NCBI GenBank assembly: GCA_937904325.1
Contig: CALGTK010000431.1
Coordinates: forward strand, 1-36,204
Reading direction: 5' to 3'
From: an uncultured Planctomyces sp.
GTDB taxonomy: Bacteria > Planctomycetota > Planctomycetia > Planctomycetales > Planctomycetaceae
Length of the DNA stretch: 36,204 bases
The notes beneath the pieces were generated by a model, which saw only the letters and a list, made by a program, of their open reading frames with translations, did not search any database and was not told where the DNA came from. This document shows, piece by piece, positions 6,294 to 36,204 of this stretch. The position numbers were made by a program, and so were the translations under genes. How positions within the stretch are numbered: position 1 is the first letter of the stretch; every line of letters starts with the position of its first letter.

Positions 6294-6317
6294 TAATCAT
6301 TTACCAGACAACGCTTC

Positions 6318-12192: not shown

Positions 12193-14547
12193 ATGTTGAA
12201 TTTACGAAAGTTTCTGACATGGAAAAGCATTGCGAGGTGCTTACTCGTGGCAACCTTGCCGCATTTCATGTCCGTCGCTGTGGCGAAGGATCAGCGTGAC
12301 GATAAAAAGCGGCTGACGTTTGAGAAGGACGTCGCACCGATTCTCGCGAATCATTGTCTGCAGTGTCACGGCGGAGAGAAACGAGAAGCTGGCCTGGATG
12401 TCAGGCGACGGTTCACACTTCTCAGCGGTGGAGACAGCGGCGCTGCAATTGTCGCCGGCAAGCCGAAACTGAGTCTTTTGATTGAGATGATCGATGCAGG
12501 GCTAATGCCGCCCGAAGATAAACCTCGGCTGCCATCTAAAACAATCTCTGTCCTGCGTCAGTGGATTGCAACAGGGGCCGCAACCACTGGTGAGAAGGAA
12601 CCGCCACTGAAGAATGACGCTCCCGGACAAGGAGACACGTCGTTCAGTGACGAGGCACGGAAACACTGGGCGTTTCAACCAATTCGCAGAATAACGCCGC
12701 CTCGAGTTGAGAATGTTGACTGGCTGCAGACGCCGGTCGACTCATTCATCCTTGCCAGGCTCGAACAACGAACCTGGCAACCCGCTCCGTCCGCATCGCG
12801 CGAGGAGCTGATTCGCCGAATCCATTTCGACCTGGTCGGTCTGCCGCCTCAGCCAGAAGACATCGCGGCCTTTGTTAACAACTCATCGCCGGATGCTTAC
12901 ACGCGACTGGTAGATCGTCTACTGGCCAGTCCGCACTACGGCGAGCGGTGGGCTCAGCACTGGCTGGACGTCGTCCGTTTCGCCGAGACCGAAGGCTTCG
13001 AATATGACCGGCACCTGCCCGACGCATGGAGGTATAGAGATTACGTCATCAACTCGTTAAACGATGACAAGCCGTTCGACCAGTTTGTTACCGAGCAGAT
13101 CGCAGGCGACGAAATAGCACCGAACGATACCCAGCATTCGGCGGCCGTCATTCTTCATCGGCTCGGCGCCGTTCGCCGAAATGCCGGCAACCCGGATATC
13201 GCTCTCAGCCGAAATGAAGTACTGACCGAGCGAACAAACATCATCGGCGAAGCGTTCCTGGGACTAACCGTCGGCTGCGCCCGCTGCCACAACCACAAGC
13301 TCGAACCGATCACGCAGAAAGACTACTACCGACTGCAGGCTTACTTCGCGGCCACCGAAGAAAACAACATCCTGCTGGCTCCCGCTGAAGAAATGCAGTC
13401 GTGGGAAAAGCAATCGAAAGAGATCAACGCGCAAATCAAAAAGTTAAAGACAGAAGTCAACACAGCGACTGGAGCAAAGAAGGCCGAACTGGAAAACCAG
13501 CTCTTCGAAGTTGCCTACACGCTGCCAACGCGGCCGGCAACGATTCCCAGCATCCGCAATGATCATGAACACCGCACGGCGATGCACGTTCTGCGGCGAG
13601 GTGTCTGGGAGCAGAAAGGTGTCGCCGTTGGCCCTCGACCTCTGAGCATTCTCGTGCCAGCTTCAGAACCTGAACTGGCTGCAGACATCCAGAAACCTCG
13701 CACCCAACTCGCCAGATGGATCACTGACGACAGACATCCGCTGACTGCCCGTGTCATCGTGAATCGTTTATGGCAGCACCACTTTGGATCAGGCCTGGTC
13801 AAAACGGCAAACGATTTCGGTACCCACGGCGCATCGCCAAGCCATCCTGGACTACTCGACTGGCTGGCGCAGACATTGATCGACAACGACTGGAAATGGA
13901 AATCCATTCATCGTCAGATCGTTCTCAGCAGTACCTATCGACAAAGTAGCCAGCACCCTTTCGCGGCCGGACTTTCAAAGACCGATCCGGAAAATCGTTT
14001 CTGCTGGCGTGTGAACCGCCGACGTCTGTCCGCTGAGGAAATTCGCGACGCCATGCTGGCAGCCTCCGGCAGAATCAATCCTCAGTTACGCGGTCGCAGC
14101 GTGATGGTGCCAGTTGAACGAGAACTCATCAATCTTCTTTACAAGCCAACTCAATGGGTCGTGGCCAAAGATGCCGCGGCACATGATCGCCGGTCGATTT
14201 ATCTGATTGCCAAACGAAACCTTCGCCTGCCGTTTATGGAAGCGTTCGATGCTCCTGCGCTGCAGACAAGTTGTTCGGCCCGGGAATCCAGCACGCACGC
14301 GCCGCAGGCTCTTGAACTTCTCAACGGACGCTTCTCCAACGAAGTGGCAGTTGCGTTTGCAAAGAGACTGACTGCAGAATGCGCCGGTCAAACAGAAAAA
14401 ATCGTCGAGCGAGCCTACCAACTTGCAGTTGGCCGAGCGCCATCCGACAAAGAACACAGGCTGTCGCTTGAGTTTCTGCAGGACCAGCCACTAACGGAAT
14501 TCGCACTTGCTATCTTCAACCTTCACGGATTCGTTTATGTCCGGTAA
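12193..14547 (+). CDS. PSCyt1-DUF1549-DUF1553 cytochrome-type protein
   Basis: I prefer the ATG at 12193 (784 residues) over the TTG at 12172, because it gives a compact signal peptide (KSIARCLLVATLPHFMSVAVA). The mature protein begins with a planctomycete cytochrome C domain: DVAPILANHCLQCHGGEKRE with a CxxCH haem site (Cys55, Cys58, His59) and a likely distal Met in DAGLMPPEDKPRL. DUF1549 (about 155-365) contains FDLVGLPPQPEDI and the conserved HYGERWAQHWLDVVRFAETE. A second CARCH motif (VGCARCHNHKLEPI) ends it. A short Lys/Glu-rich helical linker precedes DUF1553 (about 490-740; RWITDDRHPLTARVIVNRLW, STYRQSS, ALELLNGRF). These proteins are exported and probably take part in redox chemistry or carbohydrate breakdown; their exact function is not established. 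The stop overlaps the DUF1501 start by 11 bp, indicating one operon. Confidence 0.9.
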   Translation: MLNLRKFLTWKSIARCLLVATLPHFMSVAVAKDQRDDKKRLTFEKDVAPILANHCLQCHGGEKREAGLDVRRRFTLLSGGDSGAAIVAGKPKLSLLIEMIDAGLMPPEDKPRLPSKTISVLRQWIATGAATTGEKEPPLKNDAPGQGDTSFSDEARKHWAFQPIRRITPPRVENVDWLQTPVDSFILARLEQRTWQPAPSASREELIRRIHFDLVGLPPQPEDIAAFVNNSSPDAYTRLVDRLLASPHYGERWAQHWLDVVRFAETEGFEYDRHLPDAWRYRDYVINSLNDDKPFDQFVTEQIAGDEIAPNDTQHSAAVILHRLGAVRRNAGNPDIALSRNEVLTERTNIIGEAFLGLTVGCARCHNHKLEPITQKDYYRLQAYFAATEENNILLAPAEEMQSWEKQSKEINAQIKKLKTEVNTATGAKKAELENQLFEVAYTLPTRPATIPSIRNDHEHRTAMHVLRRGVWEQKGVAVGPRPLSILVPASEPELAADIQKPRTQLARWITDDRHPLTARVIVNRLWQHHFGSGLVKTANDFGTHGASPSHPGLLDWLAQTLIDNDWKWKSIHRQIVLSSTYRQSSQHPFAAGLSKTDPENRFCWRVNRRRLSAEEIRDAMLAASGRINPQLRGRSVMVPVERELINLLYKPTQWVVAKDAAAHDRRSIYLIAKRNLRLPFMEAFDAPALQTSCSARESSTHAPQALELLNGRFSNEVAVAFAKRLTAECAGQTEKIVERAYQLAVGRAPSDKEHRLSLEFLQDQPLTEFALAIFNLHGFVYVR

Positions 14548-15964
14548 CGAACATCCTGAGCAGGTCAGCGGTCTCGACCGTCGTCAATTTCTGCGGAACT
14601 CGTTTTGTGGATTCGGTGGCATCGCACTGACGTCAATGCTTCATGACGAAGCCGCACAATCACACGCAGCCAGCCCATTGTCAGCTCGGCAGCCGCCCAT
14701 TCAGCCAGCAGCTCGCAACGTTATCTTCCTCTTCATGGCTGGAGGACCAAGCCAGTTAGAAACATTCGATCATAAACCGCTGCTCAACAAGCTCCACGGC
14801 CAACCGCGACCAAAGGAGTTCGGCGAGGCCAGGTACCAGTTCATTAAGAATGACGCAAAACTGCTCGGCACGAAACGCTCGTTCCGCAAGTACGGCGAAA
14901 GCGGCATTGAAGTTTCTGACCTGTTTCCTCGAATCAGTACCTGCGTCGACGACATCGCTGTGGTGCGATCGTGTTTCGGCGACCAGGTTGTTCATTCCGC
15001 AGCGCAGTACGAGTTGTTTTCCGGCCGCACGGTTCCCGGTTTTCCGAGCATGGGTTCCTGGGGACTTTACGGGCTGGGAGCGGAAACAAGTTCACTGCCC
15101 GCTTACGTCGTCATGCCCGACCCACTCGGAGCACTGGAAGCCGGCCAGCCGATGTACATGAACGGTTTTCTGCCAGCGGCCTATCAACCGACGATGTTTC
15201 GGCCGGGGAAGAAGCCAGTGCTCAACCTCGATCTGCCTCCGCACATCGATATGAAGCAACGTCAGCGAACACTGCAACTCGTCCGAAACTTAAACGAAGC
15301 CACACTTCAAACCGGTGACGATGAACTGGAAGCTCGGCTTAAGTCATACGAACTCGCCGCCAGAATGCAGACTCGTGCACCCGAAATCTTTGACCTTCGG
15401 CAGGAGACCAAAGAAACCCTGGACCTCTACGGAGTCGGCCAGCAGCCCACCGATGATTACGGAAGACGTTGCCTGATGGCTCGGCGGCTTGTCGAAAACG
15501 GCGTTCGTTTCACTTGCGTCGTCTCGGGCGGCGGCCCCGGCAACATGCAGTGGGACGCTCACGCCGATATCGAAGAGAACCATCTGAGAAAGGCTTCTGA
15601 AACAGACCGCCCCGTTGCCGGCCTGCTCAAAGATCTGAAACGTCGAGGCCTGCTCGACGAAACACTGGTCCTGTGGGGTGGCGAATTTGGACGCTCTCCG
15701 GAGGCTCAGGGCAACGGACGAGACCATCACAACCTTGGATTCTCGATGTTCATGGCTGGAGGCGGCATCAAAGGCGGAACAGTCGTTGGAGCCACCGACG
15801 ACATCGGCCTTCGCGCTGTCGAGTCACCTCATCACTTCCGTGACATCCACGCGACGATGCTTCATCAGCTTGGCCTCGACCAGCACAAACTCACCTACCG
15901 ACACCTCGGCCGTGACGAACGCCTCACATTCCTCGAAGGCAATGTCATCAAAGAAATCGTCTGA
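14537..15964 (+). CDS. DUF1501 Tat-exported protein (first of two)
   Basis: The chosen ATG at 14537 overlaps the end of the PSCyt1/DUF1553 gene by 11 bp and gives 475 residues with a twin-arginine signal, LDRRQFLRNSFCGFGG (Arg pair at 15-16). A frame extension to a TTG at 14507 would push the Tat motif deeper and is unlikely. DUF1501 is related to the alkaline phosphatase/sulfatase-like fold. Its hallmarks are visible: NVIFLFMAGGPSQLETFDHK near the start of the mature protein, GIEVSDLFPRISTCVDDIAV, RRLVENGVRFTCVV, WDAHADIEENH, and LVLWGGEFGRSPEAQGNGRDHH followed by FSMFMAGGGIKGG. The Asp/His-rich DAH and GRDHH motifs could bind metal. The partner of DUF1549/DUF1553 proteins in planctomycetes is very often a DUF1501 protein, but the substrate is not known. 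It is probably periplasmic. Confidence 0.92.
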   Translation: MSGNEHPEQVSGLDRRQFLRNSFCGFGGIALTSMLHDEAAQSHAASPLSARQPPIQPAARNVIFLFMAGGPSQLETFDHKPLLNKLHGQPRPKEFGEARYQFIKNDAKLLGTKRSFRKYGESGIEVSDLFPRISTCVDDIAVVRSCFGDQVVHSAAQYELFSGRTVPGFPSMGSWGLYGLGAETSSLPAYVVMPDPLGALEAGQPMYMNGFLPAAYQPTMFRPGKKPVLNLDLPPHIDMKQRQRTLQLVRNLNEATLQTGDDELEARLKSYELAARMQTRAPEIFDLRQETKETLDLYGVGQQPTDDYGRRCLMARRLVENGVRFTCVVSGGGPGNMQWDAHADIEENHLRKASETDRPVAGLLKDLKRRGLLDETLVLWGGEFGRSPEAQGNGRDHHNLGFSMFMAGGGIKGGTVVGATDDIGLRAVESPHHFRDIHATMLHQLGLDQHKLTYRHLGRDERLTFLEGNVIKEIV

Positions 15965-16154
15965 CACCGACAGTGGATGCGACGCCAAAGCACCACACCG
16001 GCGTGAGCCAATCTCTCTGATCGGAATCAGGCAGTACGCATGTTAGACTCTGAGCAACTGCGAACTCTTACACAGCTAAATCTCACAACGCCCCAGGACT
16101 CAAGGCCTGCCGTCAGCCACGTTCGCCCGACAGCTTTTGAGGATTCAAGTGCCC

Positions 16155-17627
16155 ATGTCAGTGCAATCAAGACTCGCCAGTATGAATTCCGTTCCGCATT
16201 TCGAGTCGGCACTTAGCCGACGTGACATGCTGCTTAGAAGCGGGGCTGGTTTTGGTGGTCTCGCGCTGACAGACCTGCTGAGCCGTGACGTCGGCCCCAG
16301 TCTGCAAGCGGCTGATACCAGAGATGAATCGCCGGCGGCTCCGAAATTGGCGGCGGGATTCCCTCATGCAAAGAACGTAATCTTCCTCTTCATGGAAGGT
16401 GGACCTTCGCACATGGATCTCTTCGATCCAAAACCGTTACTAACTAAGATGGCCGGTCAGCCGCTGCCGAAGTCGTTTAAGCCAGTCATCACTCCGATGG
16501 GCGAGTACAATGCTCCGCTACTCGCTCCAAAACGCAAATGGAAGCAGCACGGCGAGAGCGGATTGTGGGTTTCAGACTGGCTGCCGCACACGGCGACATG
16601 TGCCGACGACATCGCCGTTCTACGAGGCTGCTGGACGAACGGTATCAACCATTCCGGCGGCGTCTGCCAGATGAACACCGGAGTCTTCACCGCCGGTCGG
16701 CCATCGCTCGGGGCATGGGTCAGCTACGGACTCGGCACGGAGAACCAGAACCTGCCCTCGTTCGTCGTGATTCCTGACAAACCCTCCGATCCGGTGAACG
16801 GTCCTCGCAACTGGGGCTCCGGTTTCATGCCCGCGGCTTACCAGGGAACGAGACTCAAGTCCGGAACAGAACCAATCGCCAATCTGAAAACTCCCAAGGG
16901 CATCACTCCGAAACGCCAACGGGCAAAGCTCGAATTCCTCACCGAACTGAACCGCGAACACGCCAAAACGCGACCTCAACAGAGTGAACTGGAAGCCCGC
17001 ATCGCCAGCTACGAACTTGCTTTCCGAATGCAGGCAACGGCTCCTGAAGCAGTCGAACTCAGCCAGGAAACGGATGAGACGCAGAAACTGTACGGAATCG
17101 AAAGCGGAGCCAACACCAGCACCTTCGGGCGAAACTGCCTGCTGGCCCGGAGACTTGTCGAGCGGGGCGTCCGGTTCGTCCAGCTTTACCACGGAACAGG
17201 CAGCAAGTGGGACGCTCACTCGGCCATCGAAAAAAATCACACAACCAACTGCGGCGAGAGCGACAAACCGGTCGCCGGCCTGTTGAAAGATCTCAAGCGT
17301 CGAGGACTGCTGGATTCAACGCTGGTCGTGTGGGGCGGTGAGTTTGGTCGTACACCAATGAGCGAAAAGGGCGACGGCCGCGACCACAACGCAACAGGTT
17401 TCACCATGTGGATGGCCGGAGCCGGTATCAAAGGCGGACAAACCATCGGCGAGACCGACGAACTAGGCCTGCACGCCATCGAGGACCGCATGCACGTCCA
17501 CGATCTCCACTCGACAATCCTCTACATGCTCGGCCTTGACCACATGGAAGTTGTCTACAAATACAAAGGTCGCCCGGAACGTCCGACACTCAACGAAGGC
17601 TCCCCATGCCTGAAGCTGTTCGGGTAA
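16155..17627 (+). CDS. DUF1501 Tat-exported protein (second of two)
   Basis: From the ATG at 16155, preceded by GAGGA, the product is 490 residues. The frame is open to a TTG at 16137, but that adds only MRIQVP before the ATG. The twin-arginine signal is LSRRDMLLRSGAGFGGLALT (Arg pair at 22-23). The same family motifs as in the gene before it are present: NVIFLFMEGGPSHMDLFDPK, SGLWVSDWLPHTATCADDIA, WDAHSAIEKNH, TLVVWGGEFGRTPMSEKGDG with RDHN after it, and MAGAGIKGGQTIGETDELGL. The two DUF1501 proteins are clearly paralogous yet well diverged, so the duplication is not recent. It lies 190 bp after the first DUF1501 gene on the same strand. It is probably an exported, metal-dependent hydrolase-like protein working with the PSCyt1/DUF1553 protein; function unproven. 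Confidence 0.92.
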   Translation: MSVQSRLASMNSVPHFESALSRRDMLLRSGAGFGGLALTDLLSRDVGPSLQAADTRDESPAAPKLAAGFPHAKNVIFLFMEGGPSHMDLFDPKPLLTKMAGQPLPKSFKPVITPMGEYNAPLLAPKRKWKQHGESGLWVSDWLPHTATCADDIAVLRGCWTNGINHSGGVCQMNTGVFTAGRPSLGAWVSYGLGTENQNLPSFVVIPDKPSDPVNGPRNWGSGFMPAAYQGTRLKSGTEPIANLKTPKGITPKRQRAKLEFLTELNREHAKTRPQQSELEARIASYELAFRMQATAPEAVELSQETDETQKLYGIESGANTSTFGRNCLLARRLVERGVRFVQLYHGTGSKWDAHSAIEKNHTTNCGESDKPVAGLLKDLKRRGLLDSTLVVWGGEFGRTPMSEKGDGRDHNATGFTMWMAGAGIKGGQTIGETDELGLHAIEDRMHVHDLHSTILYMLGLDHMEVVYKYKGRPERPTLNEGSPCLKLFG

Positions 17628-19865: not shown

Positions 19866-20948
19866 TTACATTGAAGCTGCGACATTCACTTCTGGCAGAG
19901 TGAGAATGTGAATCTTTGCAGTACCGCCGGCATACTCTCCGTCTTTGAGCGGGCGGCCGTTGGCGTTTCTGGAGTCCGACATTGTGAAGGCGAGGCGGTG
20001 GCCGTCGGGATGGATGGCGATGCTGCGGCCGTTTGTTAGTTTGCTGCCGGTGTAGAATGGTTTTTCTTCGCCTGGTTTCCAGAAGAAGAGTTTGCCCTTA
20101 CCGGGGAAGGCGCTGGCGGTGCCGACGATGAAGCCGTCGGGATGGAACCAGACGTCGTATATGAAGCCGTCCTGCGTGTCGCCCGGAACGAGTTCGTGGA
20201 GTTGCTTGCCGGATTTCCAGTCGAAGAGCTGTAAGACTGGGCTTCCTTTGGCGAAGCCGCCGCTGGGTTCTTTCATACCTCCGGCGATGAGTTGGGAGCC
20301 TTCTTTGTTGAATTCGAGAGTTCGGACGCCGCCGCAATCCTGGATGTGGTTGAGCTGGTAGAGGCCGACGGCTTCGAACTCTCGGAGCTGTTTACCGGTT
20401 GCGGTGTCGAATTCCCGAATCGTGCCGTGGAAGTCTCCGACGACGAATGATTCTCCGTTCGGGTGAAACGCCAGGCTGAATACTTCGTGCGGCAGGTCGG
20501 TCGTCTGGCGGATGAGTTTCCCGTCGACTGTCGAGAGAATTCGAATCGTGGAATCGTTCCCGCCGATCGCGATCAGATTGCCGTCGGGTGAGACGGCAAT
20601 CGCTCGGATCCACCCGGCAAGGGAATTGGGAGCCGTCCAGAGCGGATCGGTGGCGGTCTCAGATGAGTAATCCCAGCAGCTCAGTCGTCCCCAGGAATCA
20701 CCAGTTAAGCACTGGTTGTTCTCGCCGGTGAAGGCGAGGCATTGCAGCCAGCCGTTGTGGCCGGTGAACGAGGGCAGCAGTTCGTACGAGTCGTCTTTGA
20801 CTGCCCAGCGTTGGATCGTCGCGTCGTAGCCAACTCCGACGAGAAACTTTCCGCACGGAGTGAATCGAGATTGCCAGAGCTGCCGCTCGTACTCGAGCGT
20901 CTCGCCCTGCTGTGGCTCGTACCGTTTGAGAAGTTCCTCGGCCGTCAT
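19866..20948 (-). CDS. WD40 beta-propeller protein, 360 aa
   Basis: The ATG is preceded by GAGGAGCC at about 8 nt, a strong site. The protein has no signal peptide or membrane span, so it is probably cytoplasmic. After a short N-terminal helix (MTAEELLKRYEPQQGETLEY) it consists of WD40-type units of about 42 residues, for example LPSFTGHNGWLQCLAFTGEN, GWIRAIAVSPDGNLIAIGGN with DSTIRILS, LPHEVFSLAFHPNGESFVVG with DFHGTIREFD, and RSIAIHPDGHRLAFTMS. The count fits one seven-bladed propeller. WD40 propellers are protein-binding scaffolds; no catalytic site is expected. It is the last gene of a leftward group after the PSCyt/DUF1592 and DUF1552 genes, 165 bp from the latter. A long hairpin lies in that gap, so it may be transcribed with them or separately. 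Confidence 0.85.
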   Translation of the reverse strand: MTAEELLKRYEPQQGETLEYERQLWQSRFTPCGKFLVGVGYDATIQRWAVKDDSYELLPSFTGHNGWLQCLAFTGENNQCLTGDSWGRLSCWDYSSETATDPLWTAPNSLAGWIRAIAVSPDGNLIAIGGNDSTIRILSTVDGKLIRQTTDLPHEVFSLAFHPNGESFVVGDFHGTIREFDTATGKQLREFEAVGLYQLNHIQDCGGVRTLEFNKEGSQLIAGGMKEPSGGFAKGSPVLQLFDWKSGKQLHELVPGDTQDGFIYDVWFHPDGFIVGTASAFPGKGKLFFWKPGEEKPFYTGSKLTNGRSIAIHPDGHRLAFTMSDSRNANGRPLKDGEYAGGTAKIHILTLPEVNVAASM

Positions 20949-21000
20949 TTCGTGGCTCCTCGAAGTATTAGAGCGGCTAAGATTCAGGTGTAGAGAAGTC

Positions 21001-21079
21001 GGTAACCCGAAGCGTCAGCGAGGGATGTTCGAGTTTGCCCCTTGAATATCAGAATCCCTCGCTGACGCGTCGGGTTACC
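21001..21079. repeat. Long inverted repeat (25-bp arms, 29-bp loop)
   Basis: The left arm at 21001-21025 (GGTAACCCGAAGCGTCAGCG then AGGGA) and the right arm at 21055-21079 are reverse complements with one mismatch at arm position 11 (A against C). They enclose 29 bp. I saw no other copy in this window. The hairpin lies between the DUF1552 gene and the start of the WD40 gene, both leftward. There is no T-run after either arm, so it is not a simple intrinsic terminator. It could end or attenuate the DUF1552 transcript, or be a REP-like dispersed element. Confidence 0.85.
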
Positions 21080-21113
21080 TTTAGTAAAACACTACGCATA
21101 TTTCACATTCGAT

Positions 21114-22433
21114 CTAGGTCAGCCCGGTTAGAGGGCCATCACCGCAGAAACCGGGGTTGCCGAACGTTTTGACTTCGTGACCAAAACTGTGGGCAAGAGA
21201 CAGCAGCAGGCGGTTGTGCGGTACGTTTTTAAATTTCAATGCCTGTCCGGTTTTGAAGTCCGAGCCACCGCCCAGCAGGACGAACGGGATGTTGTTGAGC
21301 GTGTGCGAGTTGCCTTTACCAAGTTCGTTGCCCCAGACGATTTGCGTGTTGTCGAGCAGGCTGCCGGGGCCGCCAGGTTCCGGTGTTTCGCTCAGCCGTT
21401 TGACCAGATAGGCCAGCTGCTCGGCGTACCATGTGTTGATCTTCGTCAGTTTTTCCTGGGCATCCTTGTTGTCGTCTCCCTCGTGCGAAAGTGAATGCTG
21501 ACCTTCTTCGATGCCTAACCACCTCATCCGTGCCTGACCGACGGAGTTGGTGTATTGCAGAGTGGCGACCCGCGAGAAATCTGAAACGAAGCTGTTGACC
21601 ATCAGGTCGATCTGCATTTTGCTGATCTGTGGAATGTTGTCGTTGTCTTCTCGGACGCCTTGTTCGATTTCCGGGATTGTGTGACCCGTTTCGGTTTCAG
21701 GTACGGCCTTGAGTTGTAATTCCATCTCGCGAACGAACGTTGCCTGTTCGTCGAGAAGATGTCGGTCTTCTGCGCTGACGGTCCCTCTCAGTTTTTTAAG
21801 GTCAGATTGCACATCGTCAAGAATGCTGGACAGAGACTCGCGATCCTGCACCTGTCCGTAGAGCTTTTCGAACATCTCGTACGGGTTGTCGATCGGGGCA
21901 ACCGGCTTGTTGGCTCCCGCATAGCTCATCCGAGTCCAGGTGTCGGCTCGGTCAGGAACCATGACTCCGAACTCGAGCGAACCGAACCGTGTTTTTGTTT
22001 CGGGGCTGGCCTGGAAGACGTTTTTCAATTTCTGGTCAAGCGAGATTCCAGTCGACCATCCAGCGGGAGTGTGCGAGCCGCCCTGGATGTTGCCTGGGAA
22101 AAGCTCAATACCAGTAAGCAAGCACGCCATGCCTCGCATGTGACTGTCGCCGTCACCTTTGACTTTGTCACAAACGCCGTTCAGGACAAGCATTTGATCG
22201 CGGTAAGGTTCCAGCGGTTTCAGAATTGGCTTGATGTCGAAGTCCGGCCCCTGCCGGTCCGGCCAGAACTCCTTCTGAACGGTCCCGTTCGGACTGAACA
22301 TCACAACGAAGCGTTTTTTCCGTGACGTGCTGCCGGCGAAACCGAGGCTTGGAAGATTCGTGAGAAACGGCAGCGCGGCTGCGTTCAGTCCAAGAGTCTT
22401 AAGAAACCGTCGTCGTGAAGTGGAGCGTGGCAT
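21114..22433 (-). CDS. DUF1552 Tat-exported protein
   Basis: The 439-residue product begins with a twin-arginine signal, [19 protein letters not shown] (Arg at 7-9). DUF1552 is distantly related to the DUF1501/phosphatase-like fold. Family features seen here include [52 protein letters not shown] and [20 protein letters not shown] near the C-terminus, where DUF1501 proteins have their WGGEFGR motif. The length is typical. In planctomycetes and verrucomicrobia DUF1552 genes usually follow a PSCyt/DUF1592-family gene, as here with 57 bp between them, which suggests one complex or pathway in the periplasm. The substrate is unknown. The sequence before the ATG is a tandem duplication and contains no ribosome binding site; no better in-frame start is apparent. 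Confidence 0.92.
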
Positions 22434-22477
22434 GGCGGGGCTTTGTGCGAGTGGCGGGGCTTTGTGCGAGTGGCGGG
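22433..22477. repeat. 19-bp tandem duplication at the DUF1552 start codon
   Basis: Two perfect copies of TGGCGGGGCTTTGTGCGAG (22433-22451 and 22452-22470) are followed by seven bases of a third (22471-22477). The first base of the first copy is part of the DUF1552 start codon, so the repeat fills the place where a ribosome binding site would be. Confidence 0.9.
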
Positions 22478-22490
22478 ATTCAATGTAGGA

Positions 22491-24803
22491 CTATTTGGCG
22501 GCAGTCTCTACGGATGGGGCATCTGCAGGCGGGTGATCGAACGCCGAAACCGTGGCGATTTCGGCGAGCAAGACGTTGACGTTGAATTCACTGCTGACGA
22601 ATAAGTCTCTCAGCTTTTCCTTCTGACCGGAACCGTAAGCCTGGATCGGCTGTTTGACAACATGTTGAAAAAGTTGCTCGACAAACGCGAGATGAACTTC
22701 GTCACTGTTGGCCAGAAATTCTCCAAGTTCTTTCGCTCCTGAAAACTTTGCCAGCTCGCCCGATTGTTGCAGGTACGAGCCGGAAGCGTCGATGTCTCGA
22801 TTCTTCTCTTTCTTGCGGAAGCGGCCAGCCGCGTCAAAGTTTTCCAGAGCGTAACCAAGCGGATTAATCATCTCATGACAAGATCGACAGACAAGATGGT
22901 CGGTCTGCAGAGCCACTCGCTGCCGTGTTGTCAGATCCGGATGCAATTTCGAAGGAACCGGCGTGATCGCTGTAGCCGGTGGTTTAAGAGAACGACCGAG
23001 AATACTTCTGGACAGGAACACGCCTCGATGAATCGGTGAGCTGACGTTGTGGTAGGCAAAGCCGCTCATCAGAAAAGGATGAGACAGAATGCCGGAGCGA
23101 GCTTCGGGTTCAAACGCGATTTTCTGAAACTTTACGTCGTTCGGGATGTCTGCCCCGTAGAACTGGCCGAGTCGCCCGCTGAGAAAGATTTCGTTACTAA
23201 GCAGGAGTTGGCGAAGATCGGGCTTCTCTTGCGATACGAAGTCGTCAATCGTCAGTTCAAGCGACGTGCGAAGATCGGACAACAACGCTCGGTCAAATCC
23301 TGCGAACTGTTCTGTGTCCTTCGAGATGTCGGTCAGGTGGTCGAGCTTCAGCCAGTAGTGAAAGAATTCCCGCAGTTTCATTTTTGTGCGAGGATCATTC
23401 ACCATGCGGGCGGCGTGACGCGAAACCTTAATTCGATTATCGAGCGAGTTGCCGTTTGCCCCGTTCCAGAGTTGGCTATCAGGCGGGCAGTCCCACAAAC
23501 CGAATGACAATCGGGAAGCGAAGTTGAATGTGTCGTTCTGACCGCCGATTTCCCGGTACAGGAATCTCGGAGACTTGAGAGCCAGCATCACCACTCGACG
23601 GACTGCAGTTTCTTCGTCTTCCGTTTTCTGAAACTGACTGTCGATATAAAGCTGCTTGTGCTCGTCGGTCAGTCGATGCCGAAGTGCTCGCTCAACGAAT
23701 CGCTCGCAGAACAATCGAAGTTTCTTAGAACGGTCGCCTTTGCCGGGACGGCTGCCGGATAGTCGATTAAGATCGTCAAAGACCTTCGTGGCAACTTCGA
23801 TTGCTGCCGAAGTTGTGGCCGTATCCCATTCTTTCGAGACAGATGTTCCGCGAGTGTAACCTTCGCTGCGGTCGTCGGGAGGAAAGGGTGTCTCGACCGT
23901 CAAGACTTCTGCGTATCGCGTCGGTGTCAGAAATCGCTCCGGGATCGGTTCTTCGATTTTGTGTGGAGCTTTCCATCTCAGGCGGATCTCCCCGGACTTG
24001 CCGTTGAACTTCGAAAATTCAAGCCGCAGTGGATACGGTCGGCCACCGATCATAAATATCGTCTGGCGATACTCCGCGTCGTTTCCTGAACGCACTTTCC
24101 CATCGATGAATGGAACTTGTGAATGGTTCAGCCAGAACTGAAAACCGTTGTCTGTCTGGATAACGAATTCATAGTTACCGGTTTCCGGAGCGATCACGGA
24201 TCCCTGCCATCGAATTGAAAACTCTTCTTTCTTCTCAAACTTGCTTTCAGCAGGAACATCTTCTCCAAAGTCGAAATCGATCAATGTATCGACGCGTTTG
24301 AAGTCGAGTGCTTTATCCTTTTGATATCGGCCGGACGCGAAGTACTCAGCCTGCAGGCCTCGTTTGTCGTCGAACGTTCGTCCGCCACGAAAGAGGCCAA
24401 TCAGGTCGGCAACTGCGTTGCGGTATTGCGTGTTCGTAAGACGAGCCAGCTTAATCCTGGGAGGCTGAATCCGAGCCTGTGCAACCGGCGAATAAAATGA
24501 ATCATAGATGTAGGCCGCGACGGCTTCGGCATCTTCGCCAGTGCAAACGTCCGATTCACCTTCGGGCATCGTTTCTGTGATGAGTCGTGCTAAGTCAACA
24601 AGTGGACGATCGCCAGCGAGCGCTGCGGGATAGTTGTCGGCAGTTCCCTGGCCGTCGTCACCGTGGCACGATGCGCACAGTTTTGCGTAGAGCGGTTTGC
24701 CGGGATATTCGTCAGCGGCCGTTGTTCTTTGCTCAAACAAGGCGAAGCCGGCTGCTGCGAAAAGAAACGTGTGCAACCAGGCTGCCAGCAAGTTATGGGG
24801 CAT
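22491..24803 (-). CDS. PSCyt/DUF1587-PA14-DUF1595-DUF1592-DUF1588-DUF1585 protein
   Basis: I choose the ATG at 24803 (770 residues) because it gives a clean signal peptide (NLLAAWLHTFLFAAAGFALF); an ATG at 24839 or a TTG at 24869 are alternatives. The mature N-terminus is a cytochrome c domain, LYAKLCASCHGDDGQGTADN, with CxxCH at about 43-47. A DUF1587-like segment follows (LARLTNTQYRNAVADLIGLF). About residues 145-285 form a PA14 domain, a carbohydrate-binding beta-sandwich (IRWQGSVIAPETGNYEFVIQ, then TDNGFQFWLN). DUF1595, DUF1592 (FFHYWLKLDHLTDI) and DUF1588 (SSPIHRGVFLSRSILGRSL) follow. A second haem-type motif, CRSCHEMINPLGYALENFDA, lies near residue 637, and DUF1585 ends the protein. It is probably an exported redox protein that binds carbohydrate. 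It precedes the DUF1552 gene by 57 bp in the usual pairing. Confidence 0.92.
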   Translation of the reverse strand: MPHNLLAAWLHTFLFAAAGFALFEQRTTAADEYPGKPLYAKLCASCHGDDGQGTADNYPAALAGDRPLVDLARLITETMPEGESDVCTGEDAEAVAAYIYDSFYSPVAQARIQPPRIKLARLTNTQYRNAVADLIGLFRGGRTFDDKRGLQAEYFASGRYQKDKALDFKRVDTLIDFDFGEDVPAESKFEKKEEFSIRWQGSVIAPETGNYEFVIQTDNGFQFWLNHSQVPFIDGKVRSGNDAEYRQTIFMIGGRPYPLRLEFSKFNGKSGEIRLRWKAPHKIEEPIPERFLTPTRYAEVLTVETPFPPDDRSEGYTRGTSVSKEWDTATTSAAIEVATKVFDDLNRLSGSRPGKGDRSKKLRLFCERFVERALRHRLTDEHKQLYIDSQFQKTEDEETAVRRVVMLALKSPRFLYREIGGQNDTFNFASRLSFGLWDCPPDSQLWNGANGNSLDNRIKVSRHAARMVNDPRTKMKLREFFHYWLKLDHLTDISKDTEQFAGFDRALLSDLRTSLELTIDDFVSQEKPDLRQLLLSNEIFLSGRLGQFYGADIPNDVKFQKIAFEPEARSGILSHPFLMSGFAYHNVSSPIHRGVFLSRSILGRSLKPPATAITPVPSKLHPDLTTRQRVALQTDHLVCRSCHEMINPLGYALENFDAAGRFRKKEKNRDIDASGSYLQQSGELAKFSGAKELGEFLANSDEVHLAFVEQLFQHVVKQPIQAYGSGQKEKLRDLFVSSEFNVNVLLAEIATVSAFDHPPADAPSVETAAK

Positions 24804-24960
24804 CGAAAACTGAGACCGTTCGGTAAGGAAGAGCGGCATTGCTTCGTACCATGACGAACATTGCCGCAAAGCAGGAGAGAATGTGACACTTGACGCGGTG
24901 GATTGTTGCGCTAACCACCAGAGCCGTTCAAGTGAATCGGCCGGTCGGCACCTTGCCAGC

Positions 24961-28573: not shown

Positions 28574-29650
28574 ATGGCACGCGAAAAGACGTTTCAAAGT
28601 TCTGACGACGACGAAGATCCCGAGCCATTTCGATCGTCTTTCGACATTAACGATGAGCAGTTCGACGACACACTCCGGCCGCAACGGCTATGCGATGTTG
28701 TTGGCCAACGCAAAGTCGTTAACCGCCTGCAGATCATGATCGACGCCGCACGTATGCGCAGCGAGCCCCTTGGGCATCTACTCCTCGACGGTCCGCCCGG
28801 ACTTGGGAAGACTACCTTCGCAACAGTGCTCCCTCGTGAGCTTGGCACCGAATGTCTGATTACATCTGGTCCATTGCTCGCCGCTCCGAAAGATCTGCTG
28901 CCGCACATCACCAATGCCGGAAAAGGTTCCGTTCTATTCATCGACGAAATTCATCGCATGGCTCCGGCGGTCGAAGAATTCATCTACCCGGTGATGGAAG
29001 ATTTCCGTGTCGACATCACGCTGGGTGAGGGGATGAACGCCCGCACGATCAATATGCAAATCGAACCATTCACGGTGATTGGCGCGACGACCCGGAGCGG
29101 CATGTTAACAGCGCCATTACGTGACCGTTTTGTAAATCGCCTTCATCTTGACTACTACGAACTGGAAGAACTCGCCGAAATTATTCGCCGCAACGCGGCG
29201 AAGATGAAAGTGGAGATCGACGAAGAGTCCGCCGCAGAGCTCGCCATCCGTGCCCGCGGCACGCCGCGAATCGCCAATAACCTGCTGAGTTGGGTTCGCG
29301 ACTTCGCAATGGTCAAAGCAAAGGGAGTCATCACGAAACAGGTTGCTGAAGACGCGCTTATCATGCAGGAAGTCGACCGGCTTGGCCTGGAAGAACCCGA
29401 CCGAAAGTATCTGCAAACGCTCGTAAAAATCTTCGCTGGCGGCCCGGCCGGTATCCAGGCAATCGGCCACAGCATCAATGTCCCGATTGACACACTGGAA
29501 GACGAAATCGAACCCTTCCTCCTCCGCAACGGCCTCATCCAACGCACACCTCGAGGCCGAATTATCACAGCCATCGGCCTCGAACACATCGGTATGTCAC
29601 TGCCCGGGAACGGAGCCGACGGTGATTCGGCATCCGGCCAGTTGTTCTAA
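28574..29650 (+). CDS. ruvB: Holliday junction branch migration helicase RuvB
   Basis: RuvB is the AAA+ motor that, with RuvA, drives branch migration of Holliday junctions during recombinational repair. The 358-residue product has Walker A GPPGLGKTT (73-81), Walker B LFIDE (121-125), the arginine-finger motif ATTRSG (Arg174, the same position as in E. coli RuvB by my count) and sensor 2 RGTPRIANNLL (from 228). The C-terminal winged helix ends in the usual RTPRGRIIT block. A 30-residue acidic, disordered-looking N-terminus (SSDDDEDPEPFRSS) precedes the core. The normally conserved Gly after DRF is Val here (DRFVNRLHL, about 184-192). ruvA and ruvC are not adjacent. It probably shares a transcript with the TPR gene 70 bp upstream. 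Confidence 0.96.
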   Translation: MAREKTFQSSDDDEDPEPFRSSFDINDEQFDDTLRPQRLCDVVGQRKVVNRLQIMIDAARMRSEPLGHLLLDGPPGLGKTTFATVLPRELGTECLITSGPLLAAPKDLLPHITNAGKGSVLFIDEIHRMAPAVEEFIYPVMEDFRVDITLGEGMNARTINMQIEPFTVIGATTRSGMLTAPLRDRFVNRLHLDYYELEELAEIIRRNAAKMKVEIDEESAAELAIRARGTPRIANNLLSWVRDFAMVKAKGVITKQVAEDALIMQEVDRLGLEEPDRKYLQTLVKIFAGGPAGIQAIGHSINVPIDTLEDEIEPFLLRNGLIQRTPRGRIITAIGLEHIGMSLPGNGADGDSASGQLF

Positions 29651-30192: not shown

Positions 30193-33100
30193 TCAGTTCT
30201 GTGCGGCAACCGGCAGCAACACGAAGTACGCCTGCGAGTTTGAACAGGTAACAAGTACCTGCTCCCCCCCCGGAGCGTAAGTCGCTGACCAGGCAACCGC
30301 CGGAGCGGTGACATCGAACAAAGGCTTGCCATCAGCCAGGTTCCAGACACGCACGCTTCCCGAATGACCGCACGAAAGCAGCTTCGTCCCGGCTGCGTTA
30401 AATCCGACCCGGTACACGGCAGATGGGTGGCCAGTCAGGGTTTGAGTGATTGCTCCTGTGGCAACGTTCCAGACTCGAACATCCTGGTCCTTTCCGCCGG
30501 TGGCGATCAGCTGACCGTTGGGGCTGAACCCAAGCGTATAAACGGGCGAGCGGGCTGCGGCGTCCTTCGGAGCGAGAGATTTCACAGCCGCTCCGGTCAC
30601 CGTGCTCCACAACCTCACTGTTCCATCCAGACCGCCTGAAACGATCTGTGAACCATCGGCGTTGAAGGCCACCTGATAGACAGCTCCTTCGTGTCCCTGA
30701 ATCTGCCGCAGTTGATTGCCGGCTGCCAGATCCCACTGACGAACGGTCGCGTCGTTTCCGGCCGAAACAATCGTCTTTCCGTCTGGAGCAAATGCGACGT
30801 CGTAAACCGCTCCGGTGTGACCGGCGAACGACTTGACAGCTACCGGCGAGGCCCATGCCCAGAGGCTGACATGTTTGTCGGCACCTCCGGTCATCAGCTC
30901 TTGTCCGGATGGCGAGAACGCTACCTGACTGAACGCTGCTTCGCTCTTCAGTTCGTGCAGCAGTTTTCCTTCAGTCGGATCGAAGACCTGAAGCAGTCCG
31001 GTCTCCCCAGCAGCGCTCAGCCGAGTTCCCTGTGGTCCGTAGCCGACATCCTGGACGGCCGCCGCTGTTTCGATCTTTGTCGTCGCGGCTCCGTCGGCAA
31101 TAGTCCACTGATAAACGAACTTGTCGACACTGCCGGCAGCCAGCAGCGTGTTGTCAGGCGAAACGGAAAGCGACGTCAACACGTCGGTGGCACCGGAAAA
31201 CTTACGGACTTCGGCTCCGTCGAGGCTCCACAATGTCGCGGTCTTGTCGGCTCCTGCGGAAACGAACTGTGTTCCGGTGCCGACAAACGCAACGTCGTTG
31301 CAGCCACCTTCGTGAGACGCAATCACCTTTGTCGCAGACGGCGTCCACACGCGGACAGACTTGTCGCTGCCCCCGGTGACCAGTTGCGTTCCCTGCTTTG
31401 TGAATAAGACGTCGGCCACCACTCCTTCGTGTCCGGCGAATCGCTCAAGCGGAAGGCCAGCCGCGACGTCCCAGACTCGAACGAATCCATCGTCGCATGT
31501 TGCAGCGACTCGGCTGCCGTCAGCATTGACGCTGACGCTCTGCACGATGTCCGGGTGAGTGAGTTTGGCTACGTCAGCCACGGGTGCTGTGACTGCCGCC
31601 ACGGGAACGTCCCAGGCGAGGACGGTTTTGTCGGCTCCCCCGGCAAACAGTTTCTTGCCATCACCGCTCACAGAGATGCTCAAGGCCGCTTTAGTGAAGC
31701 CTGCAAACATGGCCAGTTGAGTTCCGTCGTCCAGCTTCCATTGCCGAACAGTTTTGTCGACCCCGCACGTGAACAGCGACGTGCCAGCCGGCGCGAAGGC
31801 GACGGAAGTGACCGCTCCTTCGTGGCCAGCCAGAAGACTGACGAACGACGTCCGATGAACAGTGGCCGAATTCGCTGTGTCTGGAACCAGAATCGTTCGC
31901 TGATCTGGCGCGAATGCGAGGCGCGTGATCGGAGCAGCCTGGATAATCACCTCGAGCAGCCGAGCATCGGTTGCATCATGAAGCTGAATGCGTCCGTCTT
32001 CAGTTCCCACTGCAAACCGAGTTCCATCTGCACAGTATCGGACGCGATGACCTTCGGCCTCCGTCTTGAACTGAGCCGTCGCAGGGACAGGAGTTACAGG
32101 CAAAGTGGCTGGCAGATCCCAGACAAACACCTCCGCCTGAGACGTAGCGACAACCTGCTTTCCGTCGGGTCGAACGGCTGCACTGGCAATTCCAGTCGTG
32201 GGCCCTGCCAGCTGTCCAACTGGAGTTCCGTCGGCCGACCACAATCGCACAACCTTGTCGCTGCCAACTGTCGCGACAAGTGAAGTCGGTCCAACCGATT
32301 GGGCCGCAAGATCGGTGACGGAGGCTACATCGGCAATCACGATGCGTGTCGCGTTAACGGACCACAGCCGCACTGAGTTGTCCGCTCCGCCCGAGACGAC
32401 GGTCGCTGGTCCCGCGAAGTCGACGCTCGCGACGGCCGCTTCGTGTCCGGCAAACCTCTGCAGCTCTCTGCCGGTGGCGACATCCCAGACTCTCACAAAC
32501 TTGTCATCAGCTCCGGCGGCGATTCGTGAACCATCTGCGGAAACGCTAACCGACTTTACGGGTGAACCGTGAGTGAACGTCGCTGCCGCGGCCATTGGGG
32601 CATCACTGGCTGCCGTCGGCATTTCCCAGAAATAAACTGCCCCATCAGCACTCGCTGCGGCAACGACCGGCTTCGCGGCCGGACCACTGACATCAACGGA
32701 AGTCACTGCGGCCTTCGGGCCGGAGAACAGATTCAATGCGGTCGATGCGAATTCGATCGGCGATTCTGTAGCGAGTGTCCAGGTGCGAACAAACAGATCC
32801 GCGCCACCCGTTATAAGCTGCTTCCCGTCTGGTGTGAACACGACGCTGTTTGCTCCGTTTTTGTGAGCATCGAGCACGGTGATCAGTGAACGTCTGAGAA
32901 TCGAGCCAGCATTGCCGTTTCCACTGGCGAGAATCGTCCGTCCGTCCGTAGCGACAGCGAGCGAACCGATCGGAACGAGTTCTGCATTCGCTGCCGGCGC
33001 TGGACCGACCGGGCCGAGTTCCTCAAGCAGGCGTCCGCTTTTCGCGCTAAGTAGTCGAACGCGGTTGTCTGCGCAGCCAGTCGCCAGAACCTGATCGGCC

Positions 33101-36100
33101 GCCGTAAACTTCAGCGAATGAATTGGGCTGGCCACTTCCGTCATGAACGCGGCCTTGCCATCAGGGCTCCAGGCAAGCAGCTTGCCATCGGCGACCGATG
33201 CGGCGATCAGACTTCCGTCTGCATTCGACGTAACCGACAAAACGGCGTCAGCAGCTCCCGCTAAATCGACGATGGGCTCACCGGTGACACTCCAGATTCT
33301 CGCGAGTTTGTCGGCTCCCGCGGTGACAAGCTGAAACGAATTCGTAATTTTGAGCAGAGCCAGATCACTCGCGGGGCCCTGGTGAGCCACGACGACTCGC
33401 TGCGCAGCAAGCGTCCAGAGCCGTCCGGTTTTGTCCTCGCTGCCGGACAGGATCGTCTTGCCATCTGCCGCGAAATCGATCGAGTGGCTCGCCCCGGCGT
33501 GACCGACAAGCCGCTCCAGTTCCTGACCGCTGGCGATGTCGAAAATACGGACGATGCCGTCGTCTCCACTTGTCGCGAGTCTGGAAGCGTCGCCACTCAG
33601 GGAAACGTTTGTAATCGCAACTGGCACGGAATATTCGGCCGTCGCGGCGATCGGCTGACCGGCGACGACAGCGTTTGCGGCTGGCAGTTTCCAAAGCCTC
33701 GCAGTTTTTTCCGTCCCCCCTGCGATCGCTGTCAGCCCGTCGGCTGACACAGCAACATCAGCGACGGCACCTGTCATGCCGGCCAGCATGAGCTCGGTCT
33801 TTCCGTTGGCCGCGTTCCATAGTCGGACGGTCTTGTCTTCGCCGCCGCTCAGCAGCCACTTCCCGTTGGGATGCCAGGCGAGGCCGTTGACGGCACCCTC
33901 GTGTCCGGCGATCAAGCGGTCAAGCGAGAGCGTCCGCAACTCCGCCGTGTTTCCGGCGGAAACGGCGAGCGAATTTCCATCTGAGCCGAACGCAAGGTCC
34001 GAGGGCACGACCGCCAGTGTCAGGTCCTCACCGAGAACAGGCTCAGAACCAACGAACACTCGCACATGCATGTCCGCCCCGCCGACGGCCAGCCGCGACC
34101 CGTCAACGTTGAAGCAAAGTCCGGTGATGGCTGCCGGCGTTTCGATCGTCTGAGCCAGCTTGCCATCTGCCAGGGTCCAGACGTAGACATTCTTGTCGGC
34201 CCCGCCGGCAGCAATTTTCGTGCGATCGCGAGTCGCAGTAACTCGCGACAAAGCTCCCGTACTGCCGGAAAACGTGCGAACGGGCTTTCCAGTCTCATCC
34301 CACAGCTTCGCCGTCTGGTCTTCTCCAGCGGTCAGCAGGTTCTGCTTCCCAGCGACATTGACAACGTCGAGGTCATGGATGACGCCTTCGTGAGCAACCA
34401 CAACGGACTGCGCAGAGCCCGTCCATATGCGAGCCGTCCTGTCGGCTCCTCCCGAAAGCACTGTTCCGCCGTCGGCAGTCAATGCGACTTCGTGGACGAC
34501 TCCGGTGTGTCCACTCAGCCGCTCAAGTTCCAGTCCAGTCGTGGTGTCCCACAGCCGCACGATGCCATCGGCAGAGGAAGTCGCAATGCGGTTTCCATCT
34601 GTCGATGCGGCCGCGGAGTGAACAGCGGCCGGGTGAGTCAGCCTGACCTGAACGACGGCGTCCGTAAGGCTCCAGACGTGGACCGTCTTGTCGGCGCTTG
34701 AGGCGATGACACCAGTGCCGTCGGCAGTAAGAGCCACCGAGGTCACTTCGCCGGTGGGACCAGCGAACGGTTTCGAAGTTTCGTTAGCGATCGTCCAGAG
34801 TCGAACGGTCTTGTCAGCCCCACCGGAGAGAATCTGCGTGCCGGCTGCGTTCCAGGCCAGGCCTGTTACCGCGCCTATGTGGCCGGTCAGCTGTTTTGCC
34901 AGGGCAACTCGAAAGACCTGACCAGAGTTGTTCGCGGCACCAGCTACGATCGTTTCTTCGCTGGCCGCAAACGCGGCACCTCGGAGTACGACAGCCCCCG
35001 TCGGGAAGTGCTGGAGCAGCGGCCCTTTTGCGTCCCAGACTCGCAGTCCGTCCGCTCCGGTCGCCGCCACGCGCGAACCACTCGGCGAAAACGCGACGCC
35101 GGTCAGCGCGGCGGGGGCACCTTCAAGTGTCGCCGCAGCAGATCCATTTGCGACCGTGTATATCTTTACAGCGGGGTCGGCACCGGTAACTACGATTTGT
35201 GTACCGTTCGGTGAAAACGCGATGCTCGACACAGCAACGGGATGAGTGATCGTCCGCACGGCAGCGCCCGTGGCCGAATTCCAAAGCTTGACAGTTTTGT
35301 CTGCCGAGCCTGAAGCCAGCGTCGTGCCGGTCAGAGCCAGGCTGATGATTGCTGCGGTGTGCCCCGAAATCTCACGCAGAGGTTTGACTTTCTTTGTTTC
35401 CTCATCGGGCTTCGCCACCGGGTCCCATTGGCGGACAAATTTGTCGGTTCCGCCGGAGATGACCTGAGTCCCCACTCCCACAGCAAGAACGGCGGACACT
35501 ACCGAGCCGTGCTCGAAGATCGCCGTTTGTTTTCCATCGGCGACGGTCCACAGGCGAGCCGTTCCGTCAGCTCCGCCGGTCGCGATATGAGTGCCGGTGT
35601 TCGAGAACGAGACGGCGTTGACAGCTCCCTTGTGACCGACCAGTGCCCGCACGAATTTGCCGTCTGCAACCTGAGAAATCCTCACCGTTCCATCGGCTGA
35701 CGCCGTCGCCATCAGCGTGCCTTTCGGATCGACAGCAACATCCGTGACCGGCATCGTGTGCCCCGCGACAGTCGTGGGAGCGATCGGCAGATTCCAGATT
35801 CGGATCGTGCCGTCGGCACCCGCCGAGGCAATCTGTTTGCCATCCGGTCGAAATGCGACATCGTGGACGGCGCCTGCGTGGCCGGCAAGACTCAGACGAT
35901 CTGACCCATCCGCCGCGTTCCACAACTTGATGAGGCCGGTTTCACTGCCGCTTGCTACCAGCGATTTGTCTTTGCTCAATGCGAGCGTTGCGACGGCTCC
36001 AGACTGGCCAGCCAGTGCCTTCGGTGCGGTTGCCGCTCCGGCTGCATTCATCACAGTAAGCTGCACTTTCCCAGCCGCATCGCCTGTTACAGCGATGGTT

Positions 36101-36204
36101 CCGTCGGCGGAGAGTTCGACAGCCTGAACCGCCATGGTATGGCCGGCCAGCGATCGCGGAGCCACCTGCGGCAGAGTCCAGGTGCGCAGTGTCCCGTCGG
36201 CTCC
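30193..36204 (-). CDS. Giant WD40-repeat protein, N-terminus cut by window edge
   Basis: The frame is open from the right edge to a TAA at 30193-30195, giving 2003 visible residues. The apparent start at 36165 is a GTG inside a blade, because sense codons (GADGTLRTWTLPQ) continue to the edge. Nearly the whole sequence is WD40 blades of about 40 residues with the pattern GH-x-GAV-x-V-A-F-DG-x-SGGADKTVRLW; I count roughly 47. From 35877 leftward, blades group into repeating blocks of eight (35877-34879, 34878-33901, 33900-32863, 32862-31822, 31821-30817), then five C-terminal blades. The last blade ends YFVLLPVAAQN. WD40 propellers are scaffolds; this would make several linked propellers. Planctomycete relatives sometimes carry an N-terminal cytochrome or signal peptide, but that part is outside the window. 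The gene is convergent with ruvB. Confidence 0.93.
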   Translation of the reverse strand, partial: GADGTLRTWTLPQVAPRSLAGHTMAVQAVELSADGTIAVTGDAAGKVQLTVMNAAGAATAPKALAGQSGAVATLALSKDKSLVASGSETGLIKLWNAADGSDRLSLAGHAGAVHDVAFRPDGKQIASAGADGTIRIWNLPIAPTTVAGHTMPVTDVAVDPKGTLMATASADGTVRISQVADGKFVRALVGHKGAVNAVSFSNTGTHIATGGADGTARLWTVADGKQTAIFEHGSVVSAVLAVGVGTQVISGGTDKFVRQWDPVAKPDEETKKVKPLREISGHTAAIISLALTGTTLASGSADKTVKLWNSATGAAVRTITHPVAVSSIAFSPNGTQIVVTGADPAVKIYTVANGSAAATLEGAPAALTGVAFSPSGSRVAATGADGLRVWDAKGPLLQHFPTGAVVLRGAAFAASEETIVAGAANNSGQVFRVALAKQLTGHIGAVTGLAWNAAGTQILSGGADKTVRLWTIANETSKPFAGPTGEVTSVALTADGTGVIASSADKTVHVWSLTDAVVQVRLTHPAAVHSAAASTDGNRIATSSADGIVRLWDTTTGLELERLSGHTGVVHEVALTADGGTVLSGGADRTARIWTGSAQSVVVAHEGVIHDLDVVNVAGKQNLLTAGEDQTAKLWDETGKPVRTFSGSTGALSRVTATRDRTKIAAGGADKNVYVWTLADGKLAQTIETPAAITGLCFNVDGSRLAVGGADMHVRVFVGSEPVLGEDLTLAVVPSDLAFGSDGNSLAVSAGNTAELRTLSLDRLIAGHEGAVNGLAWHPNGKWLLSGGEDKTVRLWNAANGKTELMLAGMTGAVADVAVSADGLTAIAGGTEKTARLWKLPAANAVVAGQPIAATAEYSVPVAITNVSLSGDASRLATSGDDGIVRIFDIASGQELERLVGHAGASHSIDFAADGKTILSGSEDKTGRLWTLAAQRVVVAHQGPASDLALLKITNSFQLVTAGADKLARIWSVTGEPIVDLAGAADAVLSVTSNADGSLIAASVADGKLLAWSPDGKAAFMTEVASPIHSLKFTAADQVLATGCADNRVRLLSAKSGRLLEELGPVGPAPAANAELVPIGSLAVATDGRTILASGNGNAGSILRRSLITVLDAHKNGANSVVFTPDGKQLITGGADLFVRTWTLATESPIEFASTALNLFSGPKAAVTSVDVSGPAAKPVVAAASADGAVYFWEMPTAASDAPMAAAATFTHGSPVKSVSVSADGSRIAAGADDKFVRVWDVATGRELQRFAGHEAAVASVDFAGPATVVSGGADNSVRLWSVNATRIVIADVASVTDLAAQSVGPTSLVATVGSDKVVRLWSADGTPVGQLAGPTTGIASAAVRPDGKQVVATSQAEVFVWDLPATLPVTPVPATAQFKTEAEGHRVRYCADGTRFAVGTEDGRIQLHDATDARLLEVIIQAAPITRLAFAPDQRTILVPDTANSATVHRTSFVSLLAGHEGAVTSVAFAPAGTSLFTCGVDKTVRQWKLDDGTQLAMFAGFTKAALSISVSGDGKKLFAGGADKTVLAWDVPVAAVTAPVADVAKLTHPDIVQSVSVNADGSRVAATCDDGFVRVWDVAAGLPLERFAGHEGVVADVLFTKQGTQLVTGGSDKSVRVWTPSATKVIASHEGGCNDVAFVGTGTQFVSAGADKTATLWSLDGAEVRKFSGATDVLTSLSVSPDNTLLAAGSVDKFVYQWTIADGAATTKIETAAAVQDVGYGPQGTRLSAAGETGLLQVFDPTEGKLLHELKSEAAFSQVAFSPSGQELMTGGADKHVSLWAWASPVAVKSFAGHTGAVYDVAFAPDGKTIVSAGNDATVRQWDLAAGNQLRQIQGHEGAVYQVAFNADGSQIVSGGLDGTVRLWSTVTGAAVKSLAPKDAAARSPVYTLGFSPNGQLIATGGKDQDVRVWNVATGAITQTLTGHPSAVYRVGFNAAGTKLLSCGHSGSVRVWNLADGKPLFDVTAPAVAWSATYAPGGEQVLVTCSNSQAYFVLLPVAAQN
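30817..35877 (-). repeat. Five eight-blade WD40 super-repeats (about 1 kb each)
   Basis: Block borders are set by the closing Gly/Ala-His codons at 34879, 33901, 32863, 31822 and 30817. Block lengths are 333, 326, 346, 347 and 335 residues. Position-specific features recur: the eighth blade lacks the Asp/Trp signature and ends in an Arg/Leu-rich form (VFRVALAKQLTGH, LRTLSLDRLIAGH, LRRSLITVLDAH, VHRTSFVSLLAGH). The third ends GLELERLSGH, GQELERLVGH, GRELQRFAGH or GLPLERFAGH. The fourth ends SVVVAHEG, RVVVAHQG, RIVIADV or KVIASHEG. The third- and fourth-blade marks are clear only in the last four blocks. Confidence 0.75.

Follow-up and report, generated by a model that had tools for sequence, protein, structure and literature searches.

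Propeller blades are almost always sequential in the protein chain (PMC6805158). In Utp21, both chain ends close one ring, strand d of the N-terminus being paired with the final strand c (PMC3897721), and in the bacterial proteins WRAP and PkwA single near-identical blades have been amplified in sequential order (PMC6805158, PMC9218822). In planctomycetes, sections of one report have noted WD40 genes adjoining DUF1501 (PMC5587647), and the role of the PSCyt/PSD/DUF1501 clusters is given as unknown in parts of another (PMC5615132). A search of the open-access literature has revealed no description of nested, discontinuous or intertwined propeller towers, or of planctomycete giant WD40 proteins built in this way, which is weak evidence of absence.

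The analysed window, 36,204 nucleotides from an uncultured Planctomyces sp., is the whole of one contig (C431) of its genome, and includes a gene for a giant, putatively exported protein that is very probably a hairpin of seven-bladed WD40 propellers, in which the N-terminal limb would supply three blades and the C-terminal limb four to every ring but the one at the tip. The open reading frame (36204-30196, minus strand) encodes 2003 residues and is open at the contig end, the edge of which cuts the frame, so that the 5' end of the gene is missing. Repeats of the GH...WD type, of about 42 residues and matching PF00400, are present in the protein, and the best Pfam matches are all WD40-type propeller families (WD40, PF00400, E 2.4e-250, 21 stretches). 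Segmentation with a cyclic 42-column blade profile gave 48 WD40 units, including 47 full or nearly full blades (30196..36204, minus strand), and a BLASTP comparison of the protein with itself returned only the trivial match. A RuvB Holliday-junction helicase gene (window 28574-29650) converges on the giant gene, with a short spacer between the two.

An earlier note on this DNA had described an eight-blade rhythm in the protein and had suggested that eight-blade blocks of some 1 kb were duplicated. The mean blade similarity at lag 8 in the window protein was clearly raised (z = 7.8, with 0 of 20,000 permutations as high), lags 16 and 24 were also raised (z 3.4 and 4.0), a lesser peak was found at lag 4 (z 3.0), and the signal at lag 7 was absent (z -0.95). 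The best match was located at a multiple-of-eight offset in 27 of 46 blades, with 4.9 expected. The rhythm is therefore real, but it is confined to window blades 10-44. In a tree of window units 10-45, blades clustered by position modulo 8, as the note had proposed for blades at the same place in a block (15 changes versus 26.0 after shuffling, z -7.6), but clustering modulo 4 was at least as good (7 changes versus 20.5, z -8.5), and no clustering modulo 7 was found. Since the tree clusters modulo 4 at least as well as modulo 8, the base period of the C-terminal half is four and the eight is two copies of it; the 1-kb block is supported for this half as such a double unit. Similarity at lag 1 was under the average (z -1.1), at variance with single-blade tandem copying of the WRAP kind. 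One of the two arrangements previously suggested, here a C-terminal half built as a chain of eight-bladed propellers, would agree with the period of eight, and eight-bladed WD40 propellers exist, e.g. Tako8 (PMC6327176), but a base period of four argues against it.

The missing N-terminal half could be studied in the homologue L038 (JAQBVJ010000003.1, Planctomycetota bacterium), found in a GTDB genome search and 70% identical over the entire window protein. The L038 gene is complete (2988 aa), has at its start a putative signal peptide, recognised by eye, and contains 71 units, namely an N-terminal strand d plus 70 blades. Window unit k aligns with L038 unit k+23, unbroken over 48 units, and 23 of the 71 L038 units correspond to the part before the contig end. 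Units 5-28 of L038 repeat with a period of six and units 33-66 with a period of eight. Blade trees of L038, L060 and L065 revealed periods of three and six in the N-terminal limb and of four and eight in the C-terminal limb, with no period of seven in either limb of these three proteins. According to the homologue, window blades 1-5 belong to the period-six array. Given this period and the alignment of window and L038 units, the first block claimed earlier (residues about 109-440, window about 35880-34885) is outside the eight-array and extends across the last part of the six-array into the tip.

Relatives were gathered by profile searches with the full-length protein and with its C-terminal part, and they were found mostly in the window's own family, with 74 of the order's 162 genomes positive at E <= 1e-70 and only a few more elsewhere in the phylum. 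The blade total was 21, 28, 35, 42, 56 or 70 in all 71 complete or nearly complete homologues, which are largely members of a single family and not independent of one another; 65 of these counts were exact by program and six were scored by eye, reaching a multiple of seven after removal of an artefact from a signal peptide, an insert of low complexity or a split blade. The homologues carry different numbers of blocks of six and of eight blades, yet the total stays a multiple of seven. Several of the four-ring members (L108, L109, L113, L131 and those of genomes G118, G125-G128 and G132) have an in-frame stop near the end of the C-terminal profile match and, as this stop falls inside the match, they are without the usual P-A-A-A-R tail. 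The eight-ring homologue L061 carries a non-WD40 insertion of about 157 residues in its outermost ring (frame residues 2278-2435).

These totals, together with the period of six in the N-terminal half, are against the chain of eight-bladed propellers. They would suit ordinary seven-bladed propellers, each contiguous and strung one after the other as in known tandem WD40 proteins, in which case the periods of six and eight would be duplication accidents, and the closest solved sequence is indeed the tandem 7+7 protein 2ymu. However, a linear string predicts the period of seven that is lacking in both halves of the three proteins tested, and the six-blocks of one half and the eight-blocks of the other would break the sevens unless they were added together.

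In the hairpin preferred here, the chain on its outward pass would contribute three blades to each ring, would then form a whole ring from consecutive blades at the hairpin tip, and on its return would add four blades to each ring, every ring but the tip being closed twice by strand exchange, strand c of one limb with strand d of the other. This 3+4 layout would give a period of three in the N-terminal half (six for ring pairs), of four in the C-terminal half (eight) and a total of exactly 7n, and the complete homologue L038 would have n = 10 rings.

Strand c-d connectors without the usual turn are found at every third unit in the N-terminal limb and at every fourth unit in the C-terminal limb. 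The left connectors are of the kind L-P-x-x-A-P-x-x-L-A-G-H, and the right ones of the kind T-P-S-A-T-K-V-I-V or R-x-S-L-x-x-L-x. Two position-specific marks noticed earlier (R-x-S-L...G/A-H and V/I-V/I-x-A-H) proved real in the window protein, and they are right-hand connectors, that is, predicted crossing points. In 47 proteins, the c-d turn glycine was present in 27 of 269 predicted crossings versus 670 of 972 connectors elsewhere (Fisher 2e-71), a test that is independent only for the proteins other than the dozen on which the connector rule was derived; by side, it was found in 4 of 137 left (3%) and 23 of 132 right crossings (17%), and in 69% elsewhere. The stretch between the innermost connectors is seven blades long at the tip of the inspected homologues with n = 3, 4, 5, 6 and 8. 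When the crossing rule was applied to L038, the outermost ring consisted of d1, 2, abc3, d66, 67-70 and abc71, the next ring of d3, 4, 5, abc6, d62, 63-65 and abc66, and the contiguous ring of d27, 28-33 and abc34, all ten rings being seven-bladed. Long c-d insertions at window units 21, 29, 37 and 45 were also considered as ring exits and were rejected, as the outer ring would get six blades; the turnless short connectors give seven in every ring.

The second arrangement of the earlier note, seven-bladed propellers joined by one divergent linker blade, takes its support from window blades 11, 19, 27 and 35, which are without the D/W signature. The presumed eighth blade corresponds, nevertheless, to a ring-to-ring c-d crossing unit, and a second connector of the crossing type is located four units away in every block. 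Linker blades would also give 8k blades per limb instead of a 7n total and would leave the period of six of the other limb unexplained, so that this arrangement is given very little credence.

Under the hairpin layout, the parts of the window protein (all on the minus strand) would be distributed as follows. The end of the N-terminal limb, of period three/six (35794..36204), is assigned by homology to L038 units 24-27 and by the clustering modulo 3 and 6 in the L038 N-limb tree; it would contain the left half of ring 9 (residues 13-137), with c-d crossings at residues about 10-20 and about 137-147. The central contiguous seven-bladed ring at the hairpin tip (34909..35793) is predicted from the connector pattern and from an AlphaFold2 model of 34414-36174, and would comprise residues about 138-432, with strand d of unit 4, units 5-10 and strands a-b-c of unit 11. 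The right half of ring 9 (34417..34908, residues about 433-596) would open the C-terminal limb, as suggested by the connectors at units 11 and 15 and by the modelled ring spanning both fragment ends. By their connectors, the right halves of the outer rings would follow: ring 8 (33934..34416, units 15 and 19), with its left half largely outside the contig, ring 7 (33409..33933, units 19 and 23), ring 6 (32905..33408, units 23 and 27), ring 5 (32350..32904, units 27 and 31), ring 4 (31855..32349, units 31 and 35), ring 3 (31342..31854, units 35 and 39) and ring 2 (30859..31341, units 39 and 43, with a conserved W-A-x-A-S-P connector). The right half of the outermost ring 1 (30196..30858) ends in a C-terminus conserved in the family, and its final strand c would be paired with strand d at the N-terminus of the protein, which is outside the contig.

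The layout of the tip, a contiguous ring (fragment residues about 129-425) and a discontinuous ring from both ends, was set down before the model was seen. The AlphaFold2 prediction of this fragment (window 34414-36174, 587 aa), carried out with an alignment of two sequences in which L038 was the only other one, reached a pLDDT of 88.4 and a pTM of 0.82, with three of the five models lower (67-76), and two rings are predicted at the tip. All 50 matches listed by VIA for the model were WD40 chains, with 276-292 residues aligned and rmsd of 1.5-2.0, and in the matches listed the aligned model range begins at residues 1-12 and finishes at 585-587. The 286-residue seven-bladed designer protein 7big was aligned over 284 residues (Z 42.7, VIA). 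As the residues aligned, about one ring's worth, are spread over a range of about 1-587, the matched ring is not contiguous in the model; contiguous rings would give ranges of about half the model. This discontinuity was read from the first and last aligned residues, the split point not being seen directly. As predicted, a seven-bladed ring at the tip would thus be built from both fragment ends.

Closure of a ring by seven blades is accordingly found in the prediction for one tip ring, the 7n counts being the evidence elsewhere, and the matched ring was not closed by eight blades. With 284 of 286 residues matched to a seven-bladed chain, a chain of eight-bladed propellers is considered highly improbable. 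The linear string is also disfavored, because closure of the fragment into two contiguous rings was possible, but the ring that was matched takes in both ends instead. Sequential alignment of the tip model to 2ymu, Pwp2 and Aip1 with Foldseek gave TM-scores of 0.25-0.29 and rmsd of about 25, a poor superposition on tandem 7+7 proteins that is expected if the ring register differs, and this string is regarded as unlikely, although less so than the other two alternatives.

For the hairpin, the outer rings were also approached in L038. An AlphaFold2 model of a four-ring fragment (L038 12119-15628) was poor (pLDDT 55, pTM 0.30) and carries no weight either way, so the outer rings are proposed from sequence. 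Similarity matrices of the left and right half-rings of L038 were correlated in hairpin pairing (Mantel r 0.64, p 0.002) and less in parallel pairing (0.18), a signal that is mainly odd/even alternation, as the hairpin pairing shifted by two gives r 0.70. Covariation in 47 three-ring homologues (effective number 25) was weak and underpowered: two of the five predicted c-d pairs ranked first (c13-d6 and c17-d3), three did not, and the positive control was barely raised.

The gene order in L038 is a giant WD40 gene (2511-aa frame, L112), PSCyt2/PSD1, a PSCyt1 gene with WD40 (1672 aa) and the 2988-aa giant WD40 gene. Another contig of the window's genome (C228, L115) contains DUF1501, a giant of 56 blades and PSCyt2/PSD1, and a PSCyt1-WD40 gene begins on it. 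As this last gene is broken off at the end of C228 and the next giant is truncated at window position 36204, C228 is probably located just upstream, the two contigs being neighbours across an assembly gap perhaps caused by the repeats. The upstream giants, L112 (whole, with 56 blades after inspection) and L115:3962-11527, represent a further WD40 giant in the same cluster, with 56 blades (8 x 7), and two towers of different height would be encoded per cluster in the genomes of the homologue and of the window. Similar gene orders were found at L069 and L070. An open-frame scan revealed no PSCyt/DUF1501-type neighbours (no CxxCH proteins) at L060, L061, L064 and L065, and the association with the cytochrome cluster is thus not universal. 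From the gene order and the putative signal peptide, a likely role of the giant protein is that of a rigid extracytoplasmic scaffold for docking the neighbouring PSCyt1, PSCyt2/PSD1 and DUF1501 proteins, which is the weakest part of the interpretation. Elsewhere in the window, an exopolysaccharide cluster (1052-11381) combines three genes for glycosyltransferases with Poly_export/SLBB, a gene resembling Wzz/ParA and an O-antigen ligase that carries TPRs. At 12172-17627, a further PSCyt1/PSCyt2/PSD1 gene precedes two of the DUF1501 type. On the minus strand (19866-24869), a gene for a 360-aa WD40 protein adjoins DUF1552 and a PA14/PSD4/PSCyt3 gene, in what is again a cytochrome-type cluster of planctomycetes.

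The architecture probably represents a new class, a zipper topology in which a chain of about 3000 residues would make ten seven-bladed rings in two passes, three blades out and four back, and would grow or shrink only by matched 3+4 (or 6+8) insertions at two separate places of the gene. If this is true, most rings are common to two distant chain segments, a new way to build large repeat proteins. Two testable questions arise: how so long a chain folds if both limbs are required for most of its rings, and how duplications at two separate places of the gene keep pace with each other, so that the blade total remains a multiple of seven. The case also cautions that a sequence period need not equal the ring size.

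Among known systems, the planctomycete PSCyt/PSD/DUF1501 clusters resemble this locus in their genes, which are neighbours of the giant WD40 family; in the sections of the two cluster reports mentioned above (PMC5587647, PMC5615132), giant proteins or their architecture are not described. WRAP and the highly repetitive bacterial WD40 protein PkwA are the nearest by sequence and share the amplification of bacterial blades in one chain, but in the giant protein the repeat unit is a two-ring half-block of six or eight diverged blades. Utp21, Aip1 and the Npun_R6612 WRAP (2YMU) have two seven-bladed propellers per chain, and the 2ymu ring aligned to the tip model by VIA runs from chain residue 4 to 577. 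In these three proteins each propeller is contiguous (blades 1-7 and 8-14), the crossing is made by the D-A loops of blades 7/8 and 14/1, and only one strand is exchanged. The discontinuous matched ring and the Foldseek scores are at variance with seven consecutive blades per propeller, and, as to the terminal d-c pairing, the matched ring joins the two ends of the modelled fragment, which are not the natural termini of the protein. The giant protein would differ from them, according to the hairpin model, in sharing groups of three and four blades through c-d crossings in up to ten rings.
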